Notes: generated by a model not told the origin, from the sequence alone. DNA of 64,000 nt from Thermoplasmatales archaeon (GCA_016806715.1 CP060531.1:558001-622000), one strand, 5' to 3'; counted from the stretch's first letter, positions 42,778 through 54,146 are shown. A program made the numbers and translations.

Positions 42778-43002
42778 ATGAAGGCATTTGAGAAGTTCGT
42801 GATGCACAGTGTCTCAAATTATGGAATCTACTCCAATAAACTGGATCAGCTTCAGTATGTTGCAGATCTTAACTTCGCCTATTTGTATAAGGGCAACTTT
42901 AGCCGAATCCTCTCTTCATACAGAGTCATAACGCCAGTGTTAAGCTCCCTATGTGGGAGAACGAGAGAGTTCACAGCCGAAGTGATGTTCAGGCGGCAGT
43001 AA
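42778..43002 (+). CDS. short frame of uncertain status, 74 aa
   Basis: ATG preceded by an AAACATTAATAG element about 25 nt upstream. The first 47 residues (MKAFEKFVMHSVSNYGIYSN...) look coding; the last 27 overlap the beginning of the next gene in another frame. It may be the N-terminus of a frameshifted gene continued by the 42951 frame, or a remnant. No signal peptide, no known domain. Confidence 0.35.
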   Translation: MKAFEKFVMHSVSNYGIYSNKLDQLQYVADLNFAYLYKGNFSRILSSYRVITPVLSSLCGRTREFTAEVMFRRQ

Positions 43003-43634
43003 ATTATGAGGTGGGCCAGCCCACGCCACAGAATGAGATTAACATTACATACGTTGTAAACAACCATCTTGGAAAACTTGTTTCCAGCAAAACTACTATG
43101 TATGACAATCAGAGTGCCAATATTCTCACGTACAGATACACGAAAGAAAATCAGACATTGGTCTATGGATTGATAGACGAGAAGGGATTGTACGCACCGA
43201 TCGAACCCTACATCAGATTAAATACATTCACAATTCACCGGGGATGGCTCGAATTGATCTCAGGAACCATTTACAACATTTACTTTACATTCGACAGCTA
43301 CAATGATGCTCTTAATTTCAAGAACATCTTAACCACTGCTATCACGGTTGGATCGTCTTTTGAATACGCTTCAACAATCATTGCCTGGACAGCAATGGGT
43401 GCTGGAATAAGTAGCATTGTTCCTGATGCAGGGACTCTGGATGACACATTAGTTGGGTTTATAGGTGGGGCCGTAACGGCAATTCAAGGTAATATGAACC
43501 CAGTTTATGTGGCTAATACCATAAACGGATTGTTTACTAACCAAGAGTCCTTAAACGGACAATTTGAAGTAACATATACTCTTAATGCTAGGGAGTGGGA
43601 CCTATTCCTGAATTCTCATGGTGAGGATACATGA
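42951..43634 (+). CDS. exported-type protein with hydrophobic domain, start uncertain
   Basis: 227 residues from ATG 42951, but the frame is open and protein-like back to 42905 (SHNASVKLPMWENERVHSRS), so the true N-terminus and any signal peptide may be missing. The middle is beta-like with sequons (NEINITYVV). Residues 130-190 hold a hydrophobic Ala/Gly/Ile-rich stretch (ASTIIAWTAMGAGISSIVPD, LVGFIGGAVTAIQGN). The next gene overlaps its stop by ATGA. Function unknown. Confidence 0.5.
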   Translation: MWENERVHSRSDVQAAVNYEVGQPTPQNEINITYVVNNHLGKLVSSKTTMYDNQSANILTYRYTKENQTLVYGLIDEKGLYAPIEPYIRLNTFTIHRGWLELISGTIYNIYFTFDSYNDALNFKNILTTAITVGSSFEYASTIIAWTAMGAGISSIVPDAGTLDDTLVGFIGGAVTAIQGNMNPVYVANTINGLFTNQESLNGQFEVTYTLNAREWDLFLNSHGEDT

Positions 43635-43777
43635 ACCCGGGGCAAGTTTTAACACAGATCTATAAGAATGTTGGCTTAGCTTCTTATTCTGAGTCCGACT
43701 TTATAACCATTTATAACGCTCTTGCCTCCAATTTTGATACCAATATGGAGAAGTATTTTGCTCCCCCAACGAGTTGA
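43631..43777 (+). CDS. 48-aa protein coupled to the 42951 gene
   Basis: ATG overlaps the TGA of the preceding gene (ATGA). The product MNPGQVLTQIYKNVGLASYS...NMEKYFAPPTS is soluble and partly helical. Coupling and amino acid composition favour a real gene; nothing identifies a family. Confidence 0.5.
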   Translation: MNPGQVLTQIYKNVGLASYSESDFITIYNALASNFDTNMEKYFAPPTS

Positions 43778-43827
43778 TATTCCATAGAAGCTGTTTTGGA
43801 GGGCTGGACTTAATCCGGTGATCAAAT

Positions 43828-44205
43828 ATGGCTTCCATTATTTTTTATGCTGCCTTGTTATGGTACGGAACTCCGATAGCCGCACTCGCAATAGGGATTT
43901 ATGGTGTGTTATACTTCGCAAGACTTCTGGACATAACCGAAAGGCAATTCCTTGTGGCAATAACAGGAGGTATCATTCTTTCCGCTTTGTTTGATGCTTT
44001 TTATTACGTTACTTCAACACACATGACGGTATACCTCTATGAGGATATTTTTACGTATGCTACCTTGACGATTGCACCAATCATCATTGTGTGTCTTGTA
44101 TATTTTATATTCATAGGAAGGCGGAATTTAATCGAGAAGTATAACATTGACATTAGGGGACTAAAACTGTTGGAAATAAAGAGACTAAAAGAAATGCACA
44201 GATGA
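43828..44205 (+). CDS. four-helix membrane protein, 125 aa
   Basis: Preceded by GGTGATC four nt before the ATG, an exact match to the 16S rRNA 3' end, so this start is secure. Four hydrophobic segments (IIFYAALLWYGTPIAALAIG, VLYFARLL, FLVAITGGIILSALFDAFYY, LTIAPIIIVCLVYFIFIG) and a charged helical tail (LKLLEIKRLKEMHR). Third gene of the 42.9-44.2 kb cassette. Unknown family. Confidence 0.65.
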   Translation: MASIIFYAALLWYGTPIAALAIGIYGVLYFARLLDITERQFLVAITGGIILSALFDAFYYVTSTHMTVYLYEDIFTYATLTIAPIIIVCLVYFIFIGRRNLIEKYNIDIRGLKLLEIKRLKEMHR

Positions 44206-44644: not shown

Positions 44645-45718
44645 TTATAGTAGGGTGGTGTCCACATAAGCTTCAATCAAAGCTCCAGCAACTATAAGAG
44701 CAACCATAAGAATTATGACCAAGAACCCTTTCTTTAAAATTTTGGTGGAATTACCAGCGAATTCTTCGTAACTAGTTCCCCTCACGTATGAATTCAAGAA
44801 ATCAAGTACAACTGAAGATAAAATTAACCCAAATGTTAATGCCATCACGTATCCGAGAGTTTCGGGAAAAAATTCTGGAAGAACTGATTTAGCGAAAAGG
44901 TTCGGGCCGCCTTTCAAGAACACATACATTGAAACACCTTCAAAAAGGGATGAAGTTGTGAGCACCATCAGCGAAGGTAGCATGAAAAAGATCCCACCCG
45001 ACAAAAGTTCGAGACAGAGATCCAAATTATTGTAAAGAATAACCCTAACAGTTGAGTAAAAATTCCCAAAAAAATGTGTGTTGAAAGCGGACGTTTTGTA
45101 TACCGTTGCAGTACTAGAACTGGTAGTTAAATTGGGAACAGCACCATTAATTCCTGCATAAGCAAGTATGGCAATCAGTGGAAGATAATAGATAAGAAAG
45201 GATGCGACTATTAAACGTCTCACTGAAAGTTGATTTTTCTCAGTCAACACCAAAAAACCACTTCTACGGTCAGAGTATTTAAGAAGCAGCTTTTTGTTTC
45301 TAAAAATTCCAAATGAATCTACTAAATTGATTATAGGGTTTGATTTTAATAAAGCACGGATAAATATTTTTAACCTGAGATTGGATTTTTTTCTATCATC
45401 AAACCCAATTTTAATGTTAAAGATTCTATTTCCAATGGTTCCAATCTTCAGTGGCTCGAAGAAATAATATGTTGTTGAAATTACCGTGAAAACTATGTAA
45501 AAGTAGGCAGCCGACTGGACGGATAGTGTTGTAAGTTGCTGCAAACCAATAGAATAAAGAAGAGAAGCAGAATAAAAAAATGGCCCTTGCCTTAGCAAAG
45601 CAGACATTATTGTTGTCAAAGATAATAAGATGACCATGTCTGTAAAATAAGAAAAGAACCGTACCTTAATGTTAGCGGGCTCTAAAAGCTGTTTATTTTT
45701 GTTACGTTTCCTTGACAT
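44645..45718 (-). CDS. RDD-SpoIIM fusion membrane protein
   Basis: 357 residues. The N-terminal part (about 15-150) has the RDD pattern: an Arg and Asp in the first helix (KVRFFSYFTDMVILLSL) and a later GTIGNRIFNIKIGFDDRKK. The C-terminal half (about 225-355) is SpoIIM/DUF95-like: FFMLPSLMVLTTSSLFEGVS, FFPETLGYVMALTFGLIL and the terminal VAGALIEAYVDTT. SpoIIM/DUF95 proteins are essential parts of circular bacteriocin clusters (As-48B, CclB). It overlaps the M48 protease gene by one base. The surrounding DNA is very AT-rich. Confidence 0.8.
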   Translation of the reverse strand: MSRKRNKNKQLLEPANIKVRFFSYFTDMVILLSLTTIMSALLRQGPFFYSASLLYSIGLQQLTTLSVQSAAYFYIVFTVISTTYYFFEPLKIGTIGNRIFNIKIGFDDRKKSNLRLKIFIRALLKSNPIINLVDSFGIFRNKKLLLKYSDRRSGFLVLTEKNQLSVRRLIVASFLIYYLPLIAILAYAGINGAVPNLTTSSSTATVYKTSAFNTHFFGNFYSTVRVILYNNLDLCLELLSGGIFFMLPSLMVLTTSSLFEGVSMYVFLKGGPNLFAKSVLPEFFPETLGYVMALTFGLILSSVVLDFLNSYVRGTSYEEFAGNSTKILKKGFLVIILMVALIVAGALIEAYVDTTLL

Positions 45719-46701
45719 TATTTCTCCTCCAACTTTGAAAGGTAGTTTATTCTTTCTTCAAAAGATGGGTGACTCATGTTAAGGAAACTCGAATAACTCA
45801 TCGGGATGAGATTTATTCTTGACAGCTTCCTCAGTGCCTCAGCCAAGTCTCGTGGACTTGTAAGCCTGCTTCCCTCAATATCAGCTTCTCTTTCAAAATG
45901 TCTCTGTATATAGGGAGTGAGCCCAAAAAATACAAAAAATGAAAGGGCAAATGAAATAATTACTCCAATCAGGGAGTGGTTAGAGATTGATACGACTAAT
46001 AAATTCATACTTATAAATATGGTAGAAATAGAAAGCAGAGTTAAATTCCTCACATGTCTCTTACTTGCATGAACTATTTCATGGGCAACAACTGCGATGA
46101 TTTCATCAAAACTAAGGTTCTTTATAAGATACGAAGTAATGAAAATATAATAATCCTTAATCCCAGATTGAAAGGCGTTTGCTACCTTCATCTTGTCAGA
46201 GTCATAGACAAACAATTTCTCGATCGTCACACCAAGTTTGTCTCCAATTTCTTTTGCTTTATTCAAAATTATTTCATCAGATAATGGTTTTGATTTTTTA
46301 ATCCAGAAAAACAGAAATGGGTTAAAGTATAATAAAAAGAGTACAATAATAAATACCAAATTAAGCAAAATGATAGAGAAATAAAAATTATAATTGACAC
46401 TCACAAAAATATAATCAAATCCAATATATACAAAGAATAATACAAATAAATATGTGTTTTCCTTAATGTATTCATATAAGCTGGACTCTATATCCTTAAA
46501 GATTTTATCTATCTTCCATTCAATAGATGATATAGAAAAAACAAAAATGCTCAACGTGAATAATAATAAGATAGAAAATCGTAAGTTTTCTATATTGACC
46601 GCAAAGAATAGGCTCATTAAGAATACTACTGGCCAACTCACTGAGCCCAATATTAGCCGGACTCCGAAGTATTTTTTGATCGAATTCTCATCTAGATTCA
46701 T
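45718..46701 (-). CDS. M48 family membrane metalloprotease (HtpX/Ste24-like)
   Basis: 327 residues with about four membrane segments before and one or two after the active site. The zinc motif is VVAHEIVHASKRH (HExxH) and the third ligand lies in HFEREADIEGSRL. The active site faces the cytoplasm in this family. First gene of a two-gene operon with the RDD-SpoIIM protein, divergent from a hydrophobic 154-residue protein only 41 bp away. It could be a general quality-control protease or a dedicated processing enzyme for that neighbour. AT-rich codon use differs from flanking chromosome. Confidence 0.88.
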   Translation of the reverse strand: MNLDENSIKKYFGVRLILGSVSWPVVFLMSLFFAVNIENLRFSILLLFTLSIFVFSISSIEWKIDKIFKDIESSLYEYIKENTYLFVLFFVYIGFDYIFVSVNYNFYFSIILLNLVFIIVLFLLYFNPFLFFWIKKSKPLSDEIILNKAKEIGDKLGVTIEKLFVYDSDKMKVANAFQSGIKDYYIFITSYLIKNLSFDEIIAVVAHEIVHASKRHVRNLTLLSISTIFISMNLLVVSISNHSLIGVIISFALSFFVFFGLTPYIQRHFEREADIEGSRLTSPRDLAEALRKLSRINLIPMSYSSFLNMSHPSFEERINYLSKLEEK

Positions 46702-46715
46702 TTGTAACCAAATTC

Positions 46716-46733
46716 TTATATACTTTTAATAAT
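46716..46733. promoter_or_regulatory. interleaved divergent TATA boxes
   Basis: TTATATAC (46716-46723) is centred about 24 nt before the plus-strand ATG at 46743. Minus-strand TTATTAAAAGT (46724-46733) is centred about 27 nt before the minus-strand ATG at 46701. Each box lies inside the other promoter, so TBP binding at one should exclude the other. Confidence 0.5.
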
Positions 46734-46742
46734 TATAATCTT

Positions 46743-47207
46743 ATGGAAATATTGTACCCATCGATGAGTTTCCATGATGTCCGGAGTGTTGTTTTTTCTC
46801 CAGAAGAGAGTGATGCTTCGCGCGTCAATAGGGAGAATTTGAGAAAAGCCCTCAAGGCTACCGTTCTGTCGGCAATAGTAATTTCTATGGCGGCAATGCC
46901 AATAATGATTATTGCTGGCGTCCCAGTAGTTCAAAGCCTTGAGCAGGTACTACCTGGAGCCATGACCACACTTACAGGTGCTACTGGAGGAATGTTTATA
47001 GTTTGGGAAATAGAACATTGGGGAAGCTACCCAAGCCAAAGTGCTTGGTATAACTTCTTGTTAACCTTCGGCATAGGCTACCAAGTAGCGTCACTGTTGG
47101 CTTCTATCTTAGCATACGCGGGAGTTGTTGATATGGCAGTGGCAGTAGGAGCATTGACTGCAACTGGTGTGGGAGTTGCTTTTGCTGGAGCAATAGTCAC
47201 TTTCTAG
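46743..47207 (+). CDS. 154-aa hydrophobic Gly/Ala-rich protein, candidate bacteriocin-like precursor
   Basis: Residues 1-38 are hydrophilic and charged (MEILYPSMSFHDVRSVVFSP, then EESDASRVNRENLRKALK). Residues 40-62 form a hydrophobic helix, 85-105 are rich in Trp and Tyr (IVWEIEHWGSYP), and 108-154 are almost uniformly hydrophobic, Gly/Ala/Val-rich helices ending AFAGAIVTF. A leader followed by compact hydrophobic helices is the plan of large antimicrobial peptide precursors. A leaderless TATA supports the start. There is no homolog I can name; a small integral membrane protein is the plain alternative. Confidence 0.6.
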   Translation: MEILYPSMSFHDVRSVVFSPEESDASRVNRENLRKALKATVLSAIVISMAAMPIMIIAGVPVVQSLEQVLPGAMTTLTGATGGMFIVWEIEHWGSYPSQSAWYNFLLTFGIGYQVASLLASILAYAGVVDMAVAVGALTATGVGVAFAGAIVTF

Positions 47208-47270: not shown

Positions 47271-48270
47271 ATGGTTTTTAAGAGGAAATATCCAAAGCCA
47301 GACATTTCAGAAGAGGATCTGAGTGAGCTCAGGAGAAACAGGTCATCGATGACAGAATTGCACCAAGGACCGGCATAGACAAGAATCTTCCAAGGCCCGG
47401 AAAGCCTAGAACAATTACAGATGATAGTAAGTCATGGATCCTTAACCTTGCATGCACAAAACCAGCGGAACATGGATACCGGGATGAGCTCTGGCCCTAT
47501 ACCCTCTTGACCGGACACATAAGGAAGAACAGTTCCTCCCTCAAGAATATAAGCAGATCCACAGTCTTCGAAATACTCAATGAGGCGGAGATAAAACCTC
47601 ACAAAATAAGGTACTATGTGGAAAAGAGGGACCCTGACTTGAGGGAAAAATGGCCACCGTACTGCACGTATACAAGGAAGTGGACATAATCAACAATGGT
47701 TTCATAACACCCGAGCTGAAGGATACCATAACAATATCATTCGATGAGAAGCCGGGAATGCAGCCAATATCATTGACATCAGAGGAACTCCATCTCGTTC
47801 CCGGAAAGTATCCATCTGCCACAAGAGATTATGAGTATAAGAGGCTGGGCACTCTGTCCCTTTTGGCAGGCATAGACCTGCATTCCGGTATTGTTACGGA
47901 AACTGTGAGCAGAACACATAACAGCAATGATTTCATAGCATTCCTGAAGAAACTGGATTCGTCGTATCCCAAAGATAAGAGGATAAGGGTTATTCTGGAT
48001 AATCTAAGTGTGCACACATCGGCGAAATCGAGGGAATTCCTGCTGACAGTGCCAAAAGGGTTTGACTTTGTCTTTACTCCAAAGCATGGCTAATGGCTCA
48101 ACATAGTGTAGACACTTTTCAGCAAACTAGCCAGGACCATGCTACGTGAGATCATGGTAAAAAGCATGGATGAACTGAAGGACAGGATTGATCAGTACTT
48201 CCATGAAATTGATAAGTACCCTGTCATCTTTAGACGGAAGTATAAAATGGATGATGTCACAATAGTATAG
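47271..48270 (+). pseudogene. degenerate IS630-family transposase
   Basis: Fragments in two frames: an N-terminal part from about 47271, the HTH part at 47507-47689 (RSTVFEILNEAEIKPHKIRY), then the catalytic part at 47650-48093 with ISFDEKPGMQ and VILDNLSVHTS. After PKHG the reading continues TAA-WLNIV-TAG-TLFSKLART, where family members have Ser and the catalytic Glu. So two nonsense changes, one at the catalytic residue, plus a frameshift have killed it. The remainder runs to the stop at 48270. Confidence 0.75.
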
Positions 48271-48388
48271 TGATGAAGCGAACGCCAATATAGATTAATT
48301 ATTTTTACCTTGACTTCCGCATGTCATTCATTATCAGTGTTGCGCACAGACCCTTGGATTTGCACAGTCTGTTATTAATTATCAGGGA

Positions 48389-49963
48389 TTATGTATGTGC
48401 ACTTTCCCGGATCCCTGGATATGGCAGTCCAAGGCTTTTCAAAATATCTGAAGCTGCACTGCTCTCCGATGAAATATACAGATCTCTCTTTTCAACTGTA
48501 ACAGGAACGACATCCAGGTAATTGAGATCCTTCCTTATGCTGTCGATTGTCCTGCCGGAAAGTTTTTCCATTATCCTTGAAACAAGAAGCGACAATACGC
48601 ATACAAAGACATGCGCCCTGATTCTTTCTGATTTCCTGTGGTATACCGGCCTGATCTCGATAAACGACTTTATTGTCCTGAATGAACGCTCAATCTGCCA
48701 CTGATCCTTGTAAGCTGACACAATTTCACTTTCCGGCAGATCAGCATTGGTGACGATGAGGAATCTTCCTGCAAGCTTTTTCAGTATTTCTATGCGTTTT
48801 TCGTTCAACACTGCACCGGTCTCCGGGAACTTCACCAGTGATCTCAGCTTCCCCAGAGACTTCTTCAGTTCCTTCTGATCCGGAATCTCGGATATTCTCT
48901 TCTTTACAGTATCGATCCTGTCATTGAGATCCTTCAGATCCAGATCTTCCCTCTTCCTGTTGTATACCGCAATGTATATCCTCTTTTCAGCAAGTCTCTT
49001 CTGATCTCCGGTGGAATCATCCTTCATCACCTGATCCACGCTTATGGCGACTTTCTTCATGACCAGGTCATCCATCACAAGACTGTCAGTGAAATCCGTA
49101 TTCATGAGGATGCTGCGGTACGGCTGGTCCCACCTGTATGCAGCGGTGATATACAGGTTCTGATCCAGGAGATCCAACGATTTGGATCTTCCGAATGCCC
49201 TGTCCGCAATGATTATCACGTTTTTTATATGGAATCTCTCCTTCAGCACCGATATGGTGGATTCAAGTGTTTTCGGATCGATGGTATTGCCGGGCCACAC
49301 CTCATGGTGTATGGGTATCCCGTCTGCCATGACAAGACCGATAACAATCTGCTCCTTTCCTCTTTTCTTATCACGGGAATAACCGAATAATACCAGATCA
49401 TTATCCTCCCTGCCCTCAAAATATGATGATGTCAGGTCATAATGCACCGTGGAGGTGTCCGGTTTCAGTGCGTTGAATATTTCGATCTCGATGTCATCCT
49501 TCCCCGCCAGAAGAGAATCAAGGGATCTGTAAACATTGTCCTCGCTTATTTGTAATTCCCATGGATAGTACACCCTCTTTTCCAGATCGACCAGATCAAT
49601 GTCGGACGAGGGTTCAAACAGCCGGGAAATGATCATGAAGGATAATATCCCAGCGTAGGTGCGAGTATGTTTTTTCAGTATCCCTGATATGCCATTTCTC
49701 TCCATTATGGATCTGGCTGCATAGAATATCCCGAAGGAGAGTGTTGGCCTGATCTTAAGGTCATTCAGGGAGAATTTCCTCATGGCTTCCCTGTATTCGT
49801 CCAGCACTTTCCGGTATCTTTCCGTATCCGCTGCGGACTTCACGGGACCGAGATATTTCAGGGTAACGGTTTTCTGCACGTGATCCACAACCAGCCTTTC
49901 CGCGATGGATGCATATTCCAGTACTGCAGATCCCCTCCTGACCTTTGTAATTCTCAGGAACAT
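48389..49963 (-). CDS. IS1634-family transposase (DDE_Tnp_1)
   Basis: 524 residues from ATG 49963 (MFLRITKVRRGSAVLEYASI), chosen because TTTAAATA lies about 28 nt upstream; a longer frame from 50002 would cross the promoter. Triad candidates: VHYDLTSSYFEG, NVIIIADRAFGRSKSL and YKDQWQIERSFRTIKSF. The last codons (ESAHT and TAA) are encoded by the left inverted repeat itself. The full length is intact, so it is probably functional. Confidence 0.88.
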   Translation of the reverse strand: MFLRITKVRRGSAVLEYASIAERLVVDHVQKTVTLKYLGPVKSAADTERYRKVLDEYREAMRKFSLNDLKIRPTLSFGIFYAARSIMERNGISGILKKHTRTYAGILSFMIISRLFEPSSDIDLVDLEKRVYYPWELQISEDNVYRSLDSLLAGKDDIEIEIFNALKPDTSTVHYDLTSSYFEGREDNDLVLFGYSRDKKRGKEQIVIGLVMADGIPIHHEVWPGNTIDPKTLESTISVLKERFHIKNVIIIADRAFGRSKSLDLLDQNLYITAAYRWDQPYRSILMNTDFTDSLVMDDLVMKKVAISVDQVMKDDSTGDQKRLAEKRIYIAVYNRKREDLDLKDLNDRIDTVKKRISEIPDQKELKKSLGKLRSLVKFPETGAVLNEKRIEILKKLAGRFLIVTNADLPESEIVSAYKDQWQIERSFRTIKSFIEIRPVYHRKSERIRAHVFVCVLSLLVSRIMEKLSGRTIDSIRKDLNYLDVVPVTVEKRDLYISSESSAASDILKSLGLPYPGIRESAHT

Positions 49964-50019
49964 AGGGCAATATCGCATATGAATATTTAAAGGTATGTGC
50001 ATATATAGTGCACATACAT
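48391..50019 (-). mobile_element. IS1634-type insertion sequence
   Basis: Perfect 13-bp inverted repeats, ATGTATGTGCACT (48391-48403) and AGTGCACATACAT (50007-50019), bracket one long transposase gene. The right repeat is also half of a larger palindrome (TATGTGCA 49994-50001, TGCACATA 50009-50016). I see no clear target duplication. Confidence 0.75.
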
Positions 50020-51713: not shown

Positions 51714-52585
51714 TGGTCATTGAAGATCTGAAACCCACGATGTCCCTGAGGAATATCTCAAGAATATCCGGGATTTCCCTGTCCGGATATTATTACAAAC
51801 CTAAGGAGAGGCACATTCAGAGGATTGATTCTTCTACAAAGGAAAGGATCAGGGAGATTGCCTCTGAAAGGCCAACATACGGATACAGGAGAGTGTGGGC
51901 AATACTGAGGAATCATGGAACGAGGGTGAACCAGAAGACTGTCAGGAAGGTGCTGAAGGATAACAATCTAAGCCTTCCTGCATCGAAGCACAGAGGAAGA
52001 ACAAAGTCCAGGAATCTTTTCAAACCCACTGCACCGGATCAGCTCTGGGAGACTGACATCACCTATATCCCCACAGAATCCGGAATGACGTACCTGATGT
52101 GCATAAAGGACTGCTTCACGAAAGAATGGCGGGGATACCATTATTCCAGATCCTGCATGGCAAAGGATGCCATAAGATCCGTGGAGAATGCTGTTCTGAT
52201 GGCATTCGATAGATCTGTTCCGGAAGGCCTGGTACTGAGGACAGATAACGGTCCCCAGTACATATCACACGAGTTCAGGAATGCCATGAAATTACTGGGA
52301 ATCAAGCTTGAATATATACAGAAACATACTCCGGAGGATAATGGAGATATTGAGTCGTTCCATAATTCAATCAAGACAGACTATATCTGGCCTAATGAAC
52401 TCAAGGACTTCCATGATGCTTCTATTTCCATAGAAAGAGCATTCACAGACTACAATGAATACAGGCCACATTCATCCATTGATTATCTTCCACCAAGGGA
52501 GTTCAGGAGGAAGTTCCTGGATGATCCAGCTTTCAGGGAGAAGTTTGAGAAAAAAGAAGTTGAGGTGACACTAGATGAGAATTGA
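51710..52585 (+). CDS. IS3 OrfB, integrase-type catalytic subunit
   Basis: 291 residues. HTH_21 (ERPTYGYRRVWAILRNHG) and the rve core with DDE residues in LWETDITYIP, LRTDNGPQYIS and EDNGDIESFHNSIK. All catalytic residues are present. Expressed mainly as a frameshift fusion with OrfA. It ends 34 bp before the right terminus. Confidence 0.93.
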   Translation: MMVIEDLKPTMSLRNISRISGISLSGYYYKPKERHIQRIDSSTKERIREIASERPTYGYRRVWAILRNHGTRVNQKTVRKVLKDNNLSLPASKHRGRTKSRNLFKPTAPDQLWETDITYIPTESGMTYLMCIKDCFTKEWRGYHYSRSCMAKDAIRSVENAVLMAFDRSVPEGLVLRTDNGPQYISHEFRNAMKLLGIKLEYIQKHTPEDNGDIESFHNSIKTDYIWPNELKDFHDASISIERAFTDYNEYRPHSSIDYLPPREFRRKFLDDPAFREKFEKKEVEVTLDEN

Positions 52586-54146
52586 AGAGAAGTGTTCCAA
52601 TTCTTGGTGGAGCAGATCAATCGGATCAGTAAACATGTCAGCAACACAAATTGCAAATGGGCACTCATTCAAAGCTACCATCCATATGCCTCTAGATAAA
52701 CACCACAAACTGATTGCAACTGGAAAGCCTACCGCTCAGGTACAAGCCAATTTTGTAACAGATGGTTCTACATTGCCAACGCTAATTCCTGATGGACCTT
52801 ACTTTTATTGGGAACAGGATTATGCAAACTTTACACCAATAACACAAATACCAGTGACATTCACTTACATAAACGGTGATGCTCAAGCGTATATTAATGC
52901 GAATGGAGCGACAACTCTTAACTATAACGTGGGTTTTGCATTAAATCCTGGAAATACCTCAAGTGCTCAGTTCAATGCCGGAGGATCCGGATACTCGACC
53001 AGTTCGGGCAGCGTGGACAGTTTCAATAATGGTGAGATGGTCTATTCTTACAGCAGTGGTTCCACCGGTTACGTTTACATCAACGCATCTGTAGAAGGCG
53101 CTAACTATTCTCTGTGGTACTTAGACTCTTATGGTGCTACGCCCATGAATCAATACTTCTATGATGTAGGTATAGTCAACGTGCAACTCATTGGGACTTC
53201 TAGTGGTATTCAAAGCAGTACATCATTTGGGATAACGGATTCTTTAAGCAACATAGAAGCCCTGAACACCTGGCATCAACAAACTAGCGGACAAGCTGGT
53301 CAAGGAATTGGAAACATTGGATCACAGTATTACCAGATTTCCTCACAATCTCTCGTGGAACAATATACAAGCACTGACAGTTCATGGATTAGCTTAGGAA
53401 TAGGTCTGGGTGCGATTCTACTGGCATTTACGGCTCCACCGGTTGGAGTAGCTTTTGGAGTGCTAGGTCTCCTTTTTGGCACATTGCAGTTTGGTAGCGG
53501 TTTCTCTTCATCGAGTGGATTCGTGCAATACGATGCTCCTACAAATTATGACATAAACACTTATGTGGTTTTGTCGGGTTCACAGTATGACCTGACCAAT
53601 GGATACACTGGTAACGTACCAATGTTGGGGGTTGAAGTATATGCCTATCAGGTAAGTTCCGGTTCAGGGGGATCGGGTGGCGGCGGTGGCGGTTGTGTTC
53701 TGAATGGAACTGAGATCACCTTGGCGAACGGAACGAGCATCCCAGTTCAGGACCTGCAACCAGGAATGAAAGCTATGTCTTACGACACTTCAAATGGTAG
53801 TCTGATACAATCTACTGTTTCAAAGGTAACGGAAACTAACGTGTCGAACGTATTGGAGTTAAACCACCAAGTATACATTTCTGGGATGGGAGATCAACCC
53901 GTGTTTGTTAAGCTATCAAACGGTTCAACGGAATGGTTGGTTCTCGGAAAAGTGAACTATGGAATGAGTGTTCTTGATCCTGTAAATAACACATGGATTC
54001 CCGTAACCAGCATAACTCTGCATAATGGACACTATGCCGTATACGATGTCGTCACAGCAAGCCAACTCACAATAGGGGGGTATACAAGAGTTTTCAATGA
54101 TTACATAGCAAACGGTGTGCTTTTAGACATGAATATCACTGCTTAG
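52575..54146 (+). CDS. surface protein with C-terminal Hint domain, 5' end replaced by IS3
   Basis: 523 residues as annotated, but the first 15 codons lie in the IS3 end; native sequence begins about 52620 (IGSVNMSATQIANGHSF). It has no signal peptide of its own. The body is Ser/Gly/Asn/Tyr-rich with one hydrophobic stretch (ISLGIGLGAILLAFTAPPVG, near residue 275). After a Gly-rich linker, Cys374 starts a Hint module: CVLNGTEITLANGTSIPVQD, LQPGMKAMSYD, DQPVFV and the closing FNDYIANGVLLDMN. The usual TxxH block has Gln in place of His (GDQPVFV), so autoprocessing may be impaired. Confidence 0.7.
   Translation: MRIEEKCSNSWWSRSIGSVNMSATQIANGHSFKATIHMPLDKHHKLIATGKPTAQVQANFVTDGSTLPTLIPDGPYFYWEQDYANFTPITQIPVTFTYINGDAQAYINANGATTLNYNVGFALNPGNTSSAQFNAGGSGYSTSSGSVDSFNNGEMVYSYSSGSTGYVYINASVEGANYSLWYLDSYGATPMNQYFYDVGIVNVQLIGTSSGIQSSTSFGITDSLSNIEALNTWHQQTSGQAGQGIGNIGSQYYQISSQSLVEQYTSTDSSWISLGIGLGAILLAFTAPPVGVAFGVLGLLFGTLQFGSGFSSSSGFVQYDAPTNYDINTYVVLSGSQYDLTNGYTGNVPMLGVEVYAYQVSSGSGGSGGGGGGCVLNGTEITLANGTSIPVQDLQPGMKAMSYDTSNGSLIQSTVSKVTETNVSNVLELNHQVYISGMGDQPVFVKLSNGSTEWLVLGKVNYGMSVLDPVNNTWIPVTSITLHNGHYAVYDVVTASQLTIGGYTRVFNDYIANGVLLDMNITA

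Follow-up and report, generated by a model that had tools for sequence, protein, structure and literature searches.

What is the function of an M48 metalloprotease gene and an RDD-SpoIIM gene that face a small hydrophobic protein of no Pfam or NCBIfam family in the genome of a Thermoplasmatales archaeon? The three genes lie in a 64,000-nucleotide stretch of DNA (the window; GCA_016806715.1, CP060531.1:558001-622000), and the original prediction, made from the sequence alone, read them as a bacteriocin-like cassette. All three ORFs were confirmed at the predicted positions, with the protease/SpoIIM pair divergent from the 154-residue protein (HYD, the candidate precursor) across a gap of 41 bp (Table 1). 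The M48 and RDD-SpoIIM ORFs overlap by 1 bp, and the cassette transcripts are likely to be leaderless in both directions. The M48 and SpoIIM domain assignments exceed the Pfam cut-offs, but the RDD match is sub-threshold (0.0032). Likewise, the AT-richness ascribed to the cassette applies to the M48 and SpoIIM genes (25-40% GC, with a minimum of 25-27% in the 5' half of M48), but not to HYD (44%); GC further out from the cassette is 42-46%. Searches of HYD against Pfam, NCBIfam, PF09221 and PDB sequences gave no match, nor did a scan of the genome contigs with HYD alone. The M48 protein is the sole PF01435 match in its 1.96 Mb genome and scores far below the cut-off of the NCBIfam HtpX models; HExxH and ..AD are invariant in its family. 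A second, stand-alone SpoIIM protein of 236 aa is encoded elsewhere in the genome, beside a peroxiredoxin-like gene.

Table 1. Features of the three-gene locus, numbered from the first nucleotide of the window.
Feature	Position	Strand	Evidence or remark
HYD, candidate precursor, 154 aa	46743-47207	+	ORF; no Pfam/NCBIfam family
HYD leader region, residues ~1-97	46743-47033	+	Conserved among paralogues with differing cores; hydropathy
Leader layout			N-terminal tail, transmembrane helix (residues 45-63), linker, terminal YE-xHWGxxP-type motif
Junction motif WEIEHWGSYPS, residues 88-98	47004-47036	+	Family form [YF]E-x-x-[HN][WF]Gxx[P][ST]
HYD core S98-F154, 57 aa	47034-47204	+	Hydrophobic, net charge -1, C terminus IVTF; four short helices (predicted)
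M48 membrane metalloprotease, 327 aa, 6 predicted TM segments	45718-46701	-	PF01435 2.5e-22
HExxH active-site motif HEIVH, residues 207-211 of M48	46069-46083	-	
RDD-SpoIIM protein, 357 aa: RDD-like N-terminal part and C-terminal SpoIIM (DUF95)	44645-45718	-	PF01944 1.6e-8; family alignment
Divergent intergenic region, 41 bp	46702-46742		TATA-like TTATATA at 46716-46722

The surroundings of the cassette contain several further ORFs. Transposase-like ORFs, identified from sequence alone, adjoin the cassette at 47650-48093 and 48389-50002 (window 47507-50002) and suggest a mobile or rearranged region. To the left (42951-44205) are two orphan ORFs of 227 and 125 aa with membrane-like stretches and no Pfam family. 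At 52575-54146, a large Gly/Ser/Thr-rich putative surface protein without a Pfam match has a C-terminal part (CVLNGTEITLANG...) that resembles a Hint/intein-type domain by eye.

HYD, M48 and RDD-SpoIIM constitute a real, conserved three-gene cassette in the acidophilic Ferroplasma/Thermoplasmatales group. Among 100 genomes, tblastn with HYD detected seven relatives, all of which adjoin an M48-type HExxH gene and an RDD-SpoIIM gene. A profile built from these seven and the window HYD matched 36 places in 21 of the 117 genomes of the order, across 10 genera, the weakest match (G016) being doubtful. Thirty-three HYD genes were mapped, two of which run into a contig end, and each of the 31 with enough flanking contig has an adjacent M48 gene, so that the adjacency exceeds chance. 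HYD and SpoIIM occur together in 16 of the 117 genomes and are both absent from 90 (Fisher p 6e-11). The complete cassette is patchily distributed in approximately 20 genomes of 10 genera, including Ferroplasma acidarmanus and E-plasma. HYD is therefore not widespread without its two partners, and the RDD-SpoIIM family is not a housekeeping one, being present in 22 of the 117 genomes; in both respects, the expectations attached to the original prediction held. The divergent arrangement of the window is retained in some relatives (L012) but not in others, where HYD, M48 and SpoIIM follow one another on one strand.

Across the phylum, the RDD-SpoIIM family hardly occurs outside this group. A SpoIIM profile scan of named genomes matched only Ferroplasma acidarmanus Fer1, E-plasma and other Thermoplasmata MAGs, and distant SpoIIM relatives occur without a HYD match. 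No fourth conserved gene family was found among the cassettes, and a motif search extending 4 kb from each of 29 cassettes detected no ABC ATPase; the original prediction had likewise noted none. Viral carriage was rejected because the viral contigs contain no SpoIIM relatives. The E-plasma genome holds two cassettes; antiSMASH and BACTIBASE searches of E-plasma gave nothing (PMC10354927).

Most HYD members consist of a conserved leader of ~97 residues followed by a hypervariable hydrophobic core of 57-80 residues. The region common to the paralogues runs from an N-terminal tail through a single strong transmembrane helix and a linker to the junction motif, beyond which HYD sequences of different types are unalignable. 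This motif would form the boundary between leader and core and is a putative cleavage site. A charged leader of 38 residues had been proposed for HYD; the comparison instead gives ~97 residues that include the transmembrane helix. The divergence of the two parts is most evident in two precursors on one contig (G111), whose leaders are 93% identical, with cores at 25% (22% after shuffling) and M48 proteins at 24%. Among 29 cores of 57-80 residues, mean hydropathy is 0.95-1.8 and net charge is 0 to -12, and the last residue of nearly all is F, Y, W, A or M. The hypervariable-core pattern rests on the relatives of the window precursor rather than on its nearest kin, because in its own subfamily the core diverges about as fast as the leader.

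AlphaFold2 modelled the leader of the whole precursor poorly (mean pLDDT 61) and the last 60 residues well. A run on the 57-residue window core alone, together with 18 aligned cores, gave a pLDDT of 94.8 and a pTM of 0.77, with helices of 6-14 residues at core positions 2-10, 16-29, 34-44 and 51-56. In this model, the window core is a compact four-helix bundle and not an ordinary polytopic membrane protein, as the bacteriocin-like reading had anticipated. Foldseek searches with the whole precursor and the core against the PDB and viral models returned nothing significant.

Do the partner proteins follow the leader or the core? In 25 cassette pairs with leaders at least 60% identical but cores at most 36% identical, SpoIIM identity is 54-95% and M48 identity is 21-30%, which is the background level. 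In no pair is an M48 protein shared (at least 40% identity) beside different cores. Core type changes nine times on the M48 tree, the minimum possible (shuffled mean, 20), and 10 times on both the SpoIIM and leader trees (minima, 8 and 7), with several core types scattered. In partial Mantel tests, SpoIIM correlates with the leader given the core (0.86, p 0.0005) but not significantly with the core given the leader (0.05), whereas M48 correlates both with the core given the leader (0.32, p 0.0005) and with the leader given the core (0.42, p 0.0005). Thus, SpoIIM tracks the leader and M48 tracks both parts, and where leader and core part, M48 goes with the core. Some related cores (59-74% identical) are paired with M48 proteins that are only 26-33% identical. 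Covariation of core and M48 could arise from physical linkage alone, because the two are neighbours in most cassettes and exchange of a middle segment would suffice; linkage and function are not fully separable as its causes.

The decay of the cassettes provides a separate line of evidence. M48 is intact with HYD broken or deleted at L055 (9569-9898), L064 (two), L067, L095 and L104. Orphan M48 genes that lack both HYD and SpoIIM occur at L107:3200-4024 and L109:3650-4465, and the L107 protein shares 76% identity with the cassette M48 of G033, which belongs to a different genus. The reverse case, an intact HYD with a frameshifted M48, was found once (L053), and both genes seem broken at L101. 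In this small number of loci, an M48 that outlives its precursor looks like an immunity gene, an argument that is independent of linkage. Two intact M48-like ORFs without HExxH (L051:897-1871 and L064:9364-10368), each beside a live M48, are possibly non-catalytic partners.

Expression of the precursor may itself be variable. A tandem repeat of at least 14 bp, with (TTA)n, (TA)n or (ATATT)n as its unit, directly abuts the HYD start codon in 10 of the 22 cassettes with a usable start; repeats of 13-26 bp are located there in L014, L016, L050, L053, L055, L059, L061 and others. The same position is occupied by a repeat in only 1 of 261 other genes, which is another HYD copy, and never before M48 or SpoIIM. 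Repeat copy number differs between near-identical cassette copies. Over 2,800 bp, the cassettes of Fer1 and MAG UBA567 differ by one mismatch and one 4-bp gap, and the gap falls within the repeat. Slippage between the TATA box and the start codon is likely to cause phase variation of HYD, which would switch or tune expression in several lineages. Unlike its relatives, the window has no clear tandem repeat in the intergenic region.

We propose, with a probability of about 0.62, that the locus is a polymorphic bacteriocin-like conflict cassette whose SpoIIM protein deals with the leader and whose M48 serves as a core-matched immunity protein and/or maturation protease. The leader would anchor the precursor in the membrane with the core outside, and RDD-SpoIIM would recognize the constant leader and mediate export or release of the core. 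Once free, the hydrophobic helical bundle of 57-80 residues might insert into the membranes of competing archaea. M48, being matched to the core and not to the leader, would most likely confer immunity in the producer membrane, by degrading or blocking cores of its own type, and may also participate in core-specific maturation; the immunity role is assigned to it provisionally. The bacteriocin-like part of the original prediction is sustained by the co-occurrence of the three genes, the leader/hypervariable core organization, the predicted helical fold, the SpoIIM partner and the toxin/immunity-like inheritance of core and M48. All of the cores are neutral or acidic, unlike cationic antimicrobials, which counts against a bacteriocin. 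The active site of HtpX-like proteases is thought to be cytoplasmic, which constrains the sites where M48 could meet the core.

A bacteriocin-like cassette could also operate with the roles redistributed, M48 acting as the leader peptidase or as a maturation/cyclization enzyme and SpoIIM providing both export and immunity. M48 or M50 peptidases are present in a few circular bacteriocin clusters, whose leader peptidase is not known (PMC8659200; PMC6131525), and leucocyclicin Q secretion needs SpoIIM (PMC6131525). In the cassettes, M48 covaries with the leader as well as with the core, and a conserved motif immediately precedes the core. However, the simple leader peptidase that had been envisaged squares poorly with paralogues whose leaders are as much as 93% identical but whose M48 proteins are unrelated. 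Furthermore, M48 remains where the precursor is broken or absent. We regard this division of labor as unlikely.

Polymorphic pherotype-like signalling, with the core as a secreted signal and M48 as its cognate protease or receptor in strain-specific pairs, would likewise combine constant and variable parts with cognate membrane partners, as pherotype systems generally do. Some bacteriocin systems offer a precedent for signal-peptide processing by membrane metalloproteases (SilX, PMC9298176). A very hydrophobic helical bundle of 57-80 residues would be an unusual signal, however, no regulator or kinase is linked to the cassette, and the orphan M48 genes are better explained by immunity, all of which makes signalling very improbable. 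A housekeeping HtpX-like proteostasis pair beside an unrelated small membrane protein, for which the HtpX-like family membership of M48 and its status as sole PF01435 match in the window genome could be cited, is scarcely credible and was rejected, given that cassette M48 is linked to HYD and groups by core type, that general M48 genes are found elsewhere in 87 of the 117 genomes while RDD-SpoIIM is patchy (22 of 117), and that the HYD cores show the hypervariability and the decay typical of cassettes.

How does the proposed conflict cassette compare with head-to-tail circular bacteriocins? As in the clusters of AS-48, carnocyclin A and NKR-5-3B (uberolysin/carnocyclin family, PF09221), a SpoIIM gene accompanies a precursor with an N-terminal leader, a C-terminal hydrophobic helical core of similar size and a bare hydrophobic or aromatic C terminus. 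A SpoIIM/DUF95 gene is found in every circular bacteriocin cluster, and its loss in leucocyclicin Q leaves the mature peptide inside the cells (PMC6131525). However, the leader of ~97 aa contains a transmembrane helix and exceeds the 2-48 residues of known leaders (PMC6131525), and the cores are neutral to acidic (0 to -12, n=29), not cationic. The cassette also differs in having no ABC transporter and no separate small immunity gene, in the constant presence of M48 and in its archaeal host. PF09221 gave no match over the cut-off in the 117 genomes and none at HYD, with no NCBIfam match either. Circular bacteriocins have a compact saposin-like fold of 4-5 helices; the window core is confidently predicted as a four-helix bundle, but a Foldseek search of the core against the PDB, run without a positive control, retrieved neither AS-48 nor its relatives.

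The core profile of the window subfamily aligned with AS-48, NKR-5-3B and carnocyclin A over 46 columns with a probability of 33% and a single-comparison P of 4.4e-4, and its score exceeded all of 300 column shuffles; the other core subfamilies gave no signal in profile-profile comparison with these three bacteriocins. The AS-48 and carnocyclin A references were checked in full against PDB entries, and NKR-5-3B was checked for residues 4-64. In single-sequence comparison, similarity of the cores to the three bacteriocins is above that of natural hydrophobic controls, but it partly reflects Gly/Ala-rich composition because shuffled cores score nearly as high. Only the window subfamily and two or three other cores beat their own shuffles, and the window core itself gave p 0.087. 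The window core bears only a weak resemblance to AS-48-type circular bacteriocins. A place among the circular bacteriocins is not supported, given the silent PF09221 model, the empty Foldseek search, the acidic cores, the missing ABC transporter and the long leader. The cassette may work similarly, but it is not filed among circular bacteriocins.

Other known systems share parts of this organization. CAAX/Abi (CPBP) membrane proteases near bacteriocin genes are described, in a passage of PMC9298176 citing Kjos 2010, as immunity factors, processors or receptors. Like these clusters, the cassette pairs a multipass membrane metalloprotease with an adjacent small bacteriocin-like gene, but the protease is an HtpX-like M48 (HExxH) and not a CPBP protein, its partner is RDD-SpoIIM and the unit is a strict archaeal three-gene one. 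Polymorphic toxin-immunity systems resemble the cassette in their constant delivery part, exchangeable C-terminal core, cognate adjacent partner, tandem partial copies and orphan partners. Tests here found a constant N-terminal part with an exchangeable C-terminal part (the 25 pairs and the G111 precursors, 93%/25%) and a partner co-inherited with the variable part, including the orphan M48 genes at L107 and L109. In contrast to these systems, the core is a small membrane-type helical peptide and not an enzymatic domain, and it is paired with a protease. Known archaeocins (halocins such as C8 and sulfolobicins) are, as is putatively the cassette product, archaeal, ribosomally made antimicrobial peptides. 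To our knowledge, neither halocins nor sulfolobicins have an M48/RDD-SpoIIM triad or such cores. The literature that we searched contained no description of the cassette, although a 2019 mBio survey of antimicrobial peptides in archaea might contain an earlier mention, and no peptide weapon of hyperacidophilic Thermoplasmatales was found.

A more far-reaching version of the proposed conflict cassette is offered only tentatively. The cassettes might represent a new class of archaeal bacteriocins that combines phase-variable, polymorphic anchored precursors and acid-adapted helical-bundle cores, possibly cyclized, with RDD-SpoIIM and core-specific M48 immunity, production being switched in single cells by promoter-repeat slippage. 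If the proposal is true, the cassette would be a very simple three-gene model for the role of SpoIIM in bacteriocin export and a clear archaeal example of phase variation driven by repeats. It would also bring an M48 protease into bacteriocin immunity or maturation, a field in which circular bacteriocins still lack an identified leader peptidase and cyclase. The presence of the cassette in the cultured Ferroplasma acidarmanus makes these ideas directly testable.

Related units of different composition were also noted. A 107-aa Gly/Ala-rich hydrophobic peptide is encoded with a 415-aa M48 and a 155-aa membrane protein at L108:3558-5539, and units of this type are limited to a single genus, in which two genomes have them. 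Long RDD-SpoIIM proteins (475-480 aa) without M48 lie near small membrane proteins at L091:644-4039 and L090:4801-7444, the former with a hydrophobic 154-aa protein as well, and these two loci possibly represent a second cassette type.
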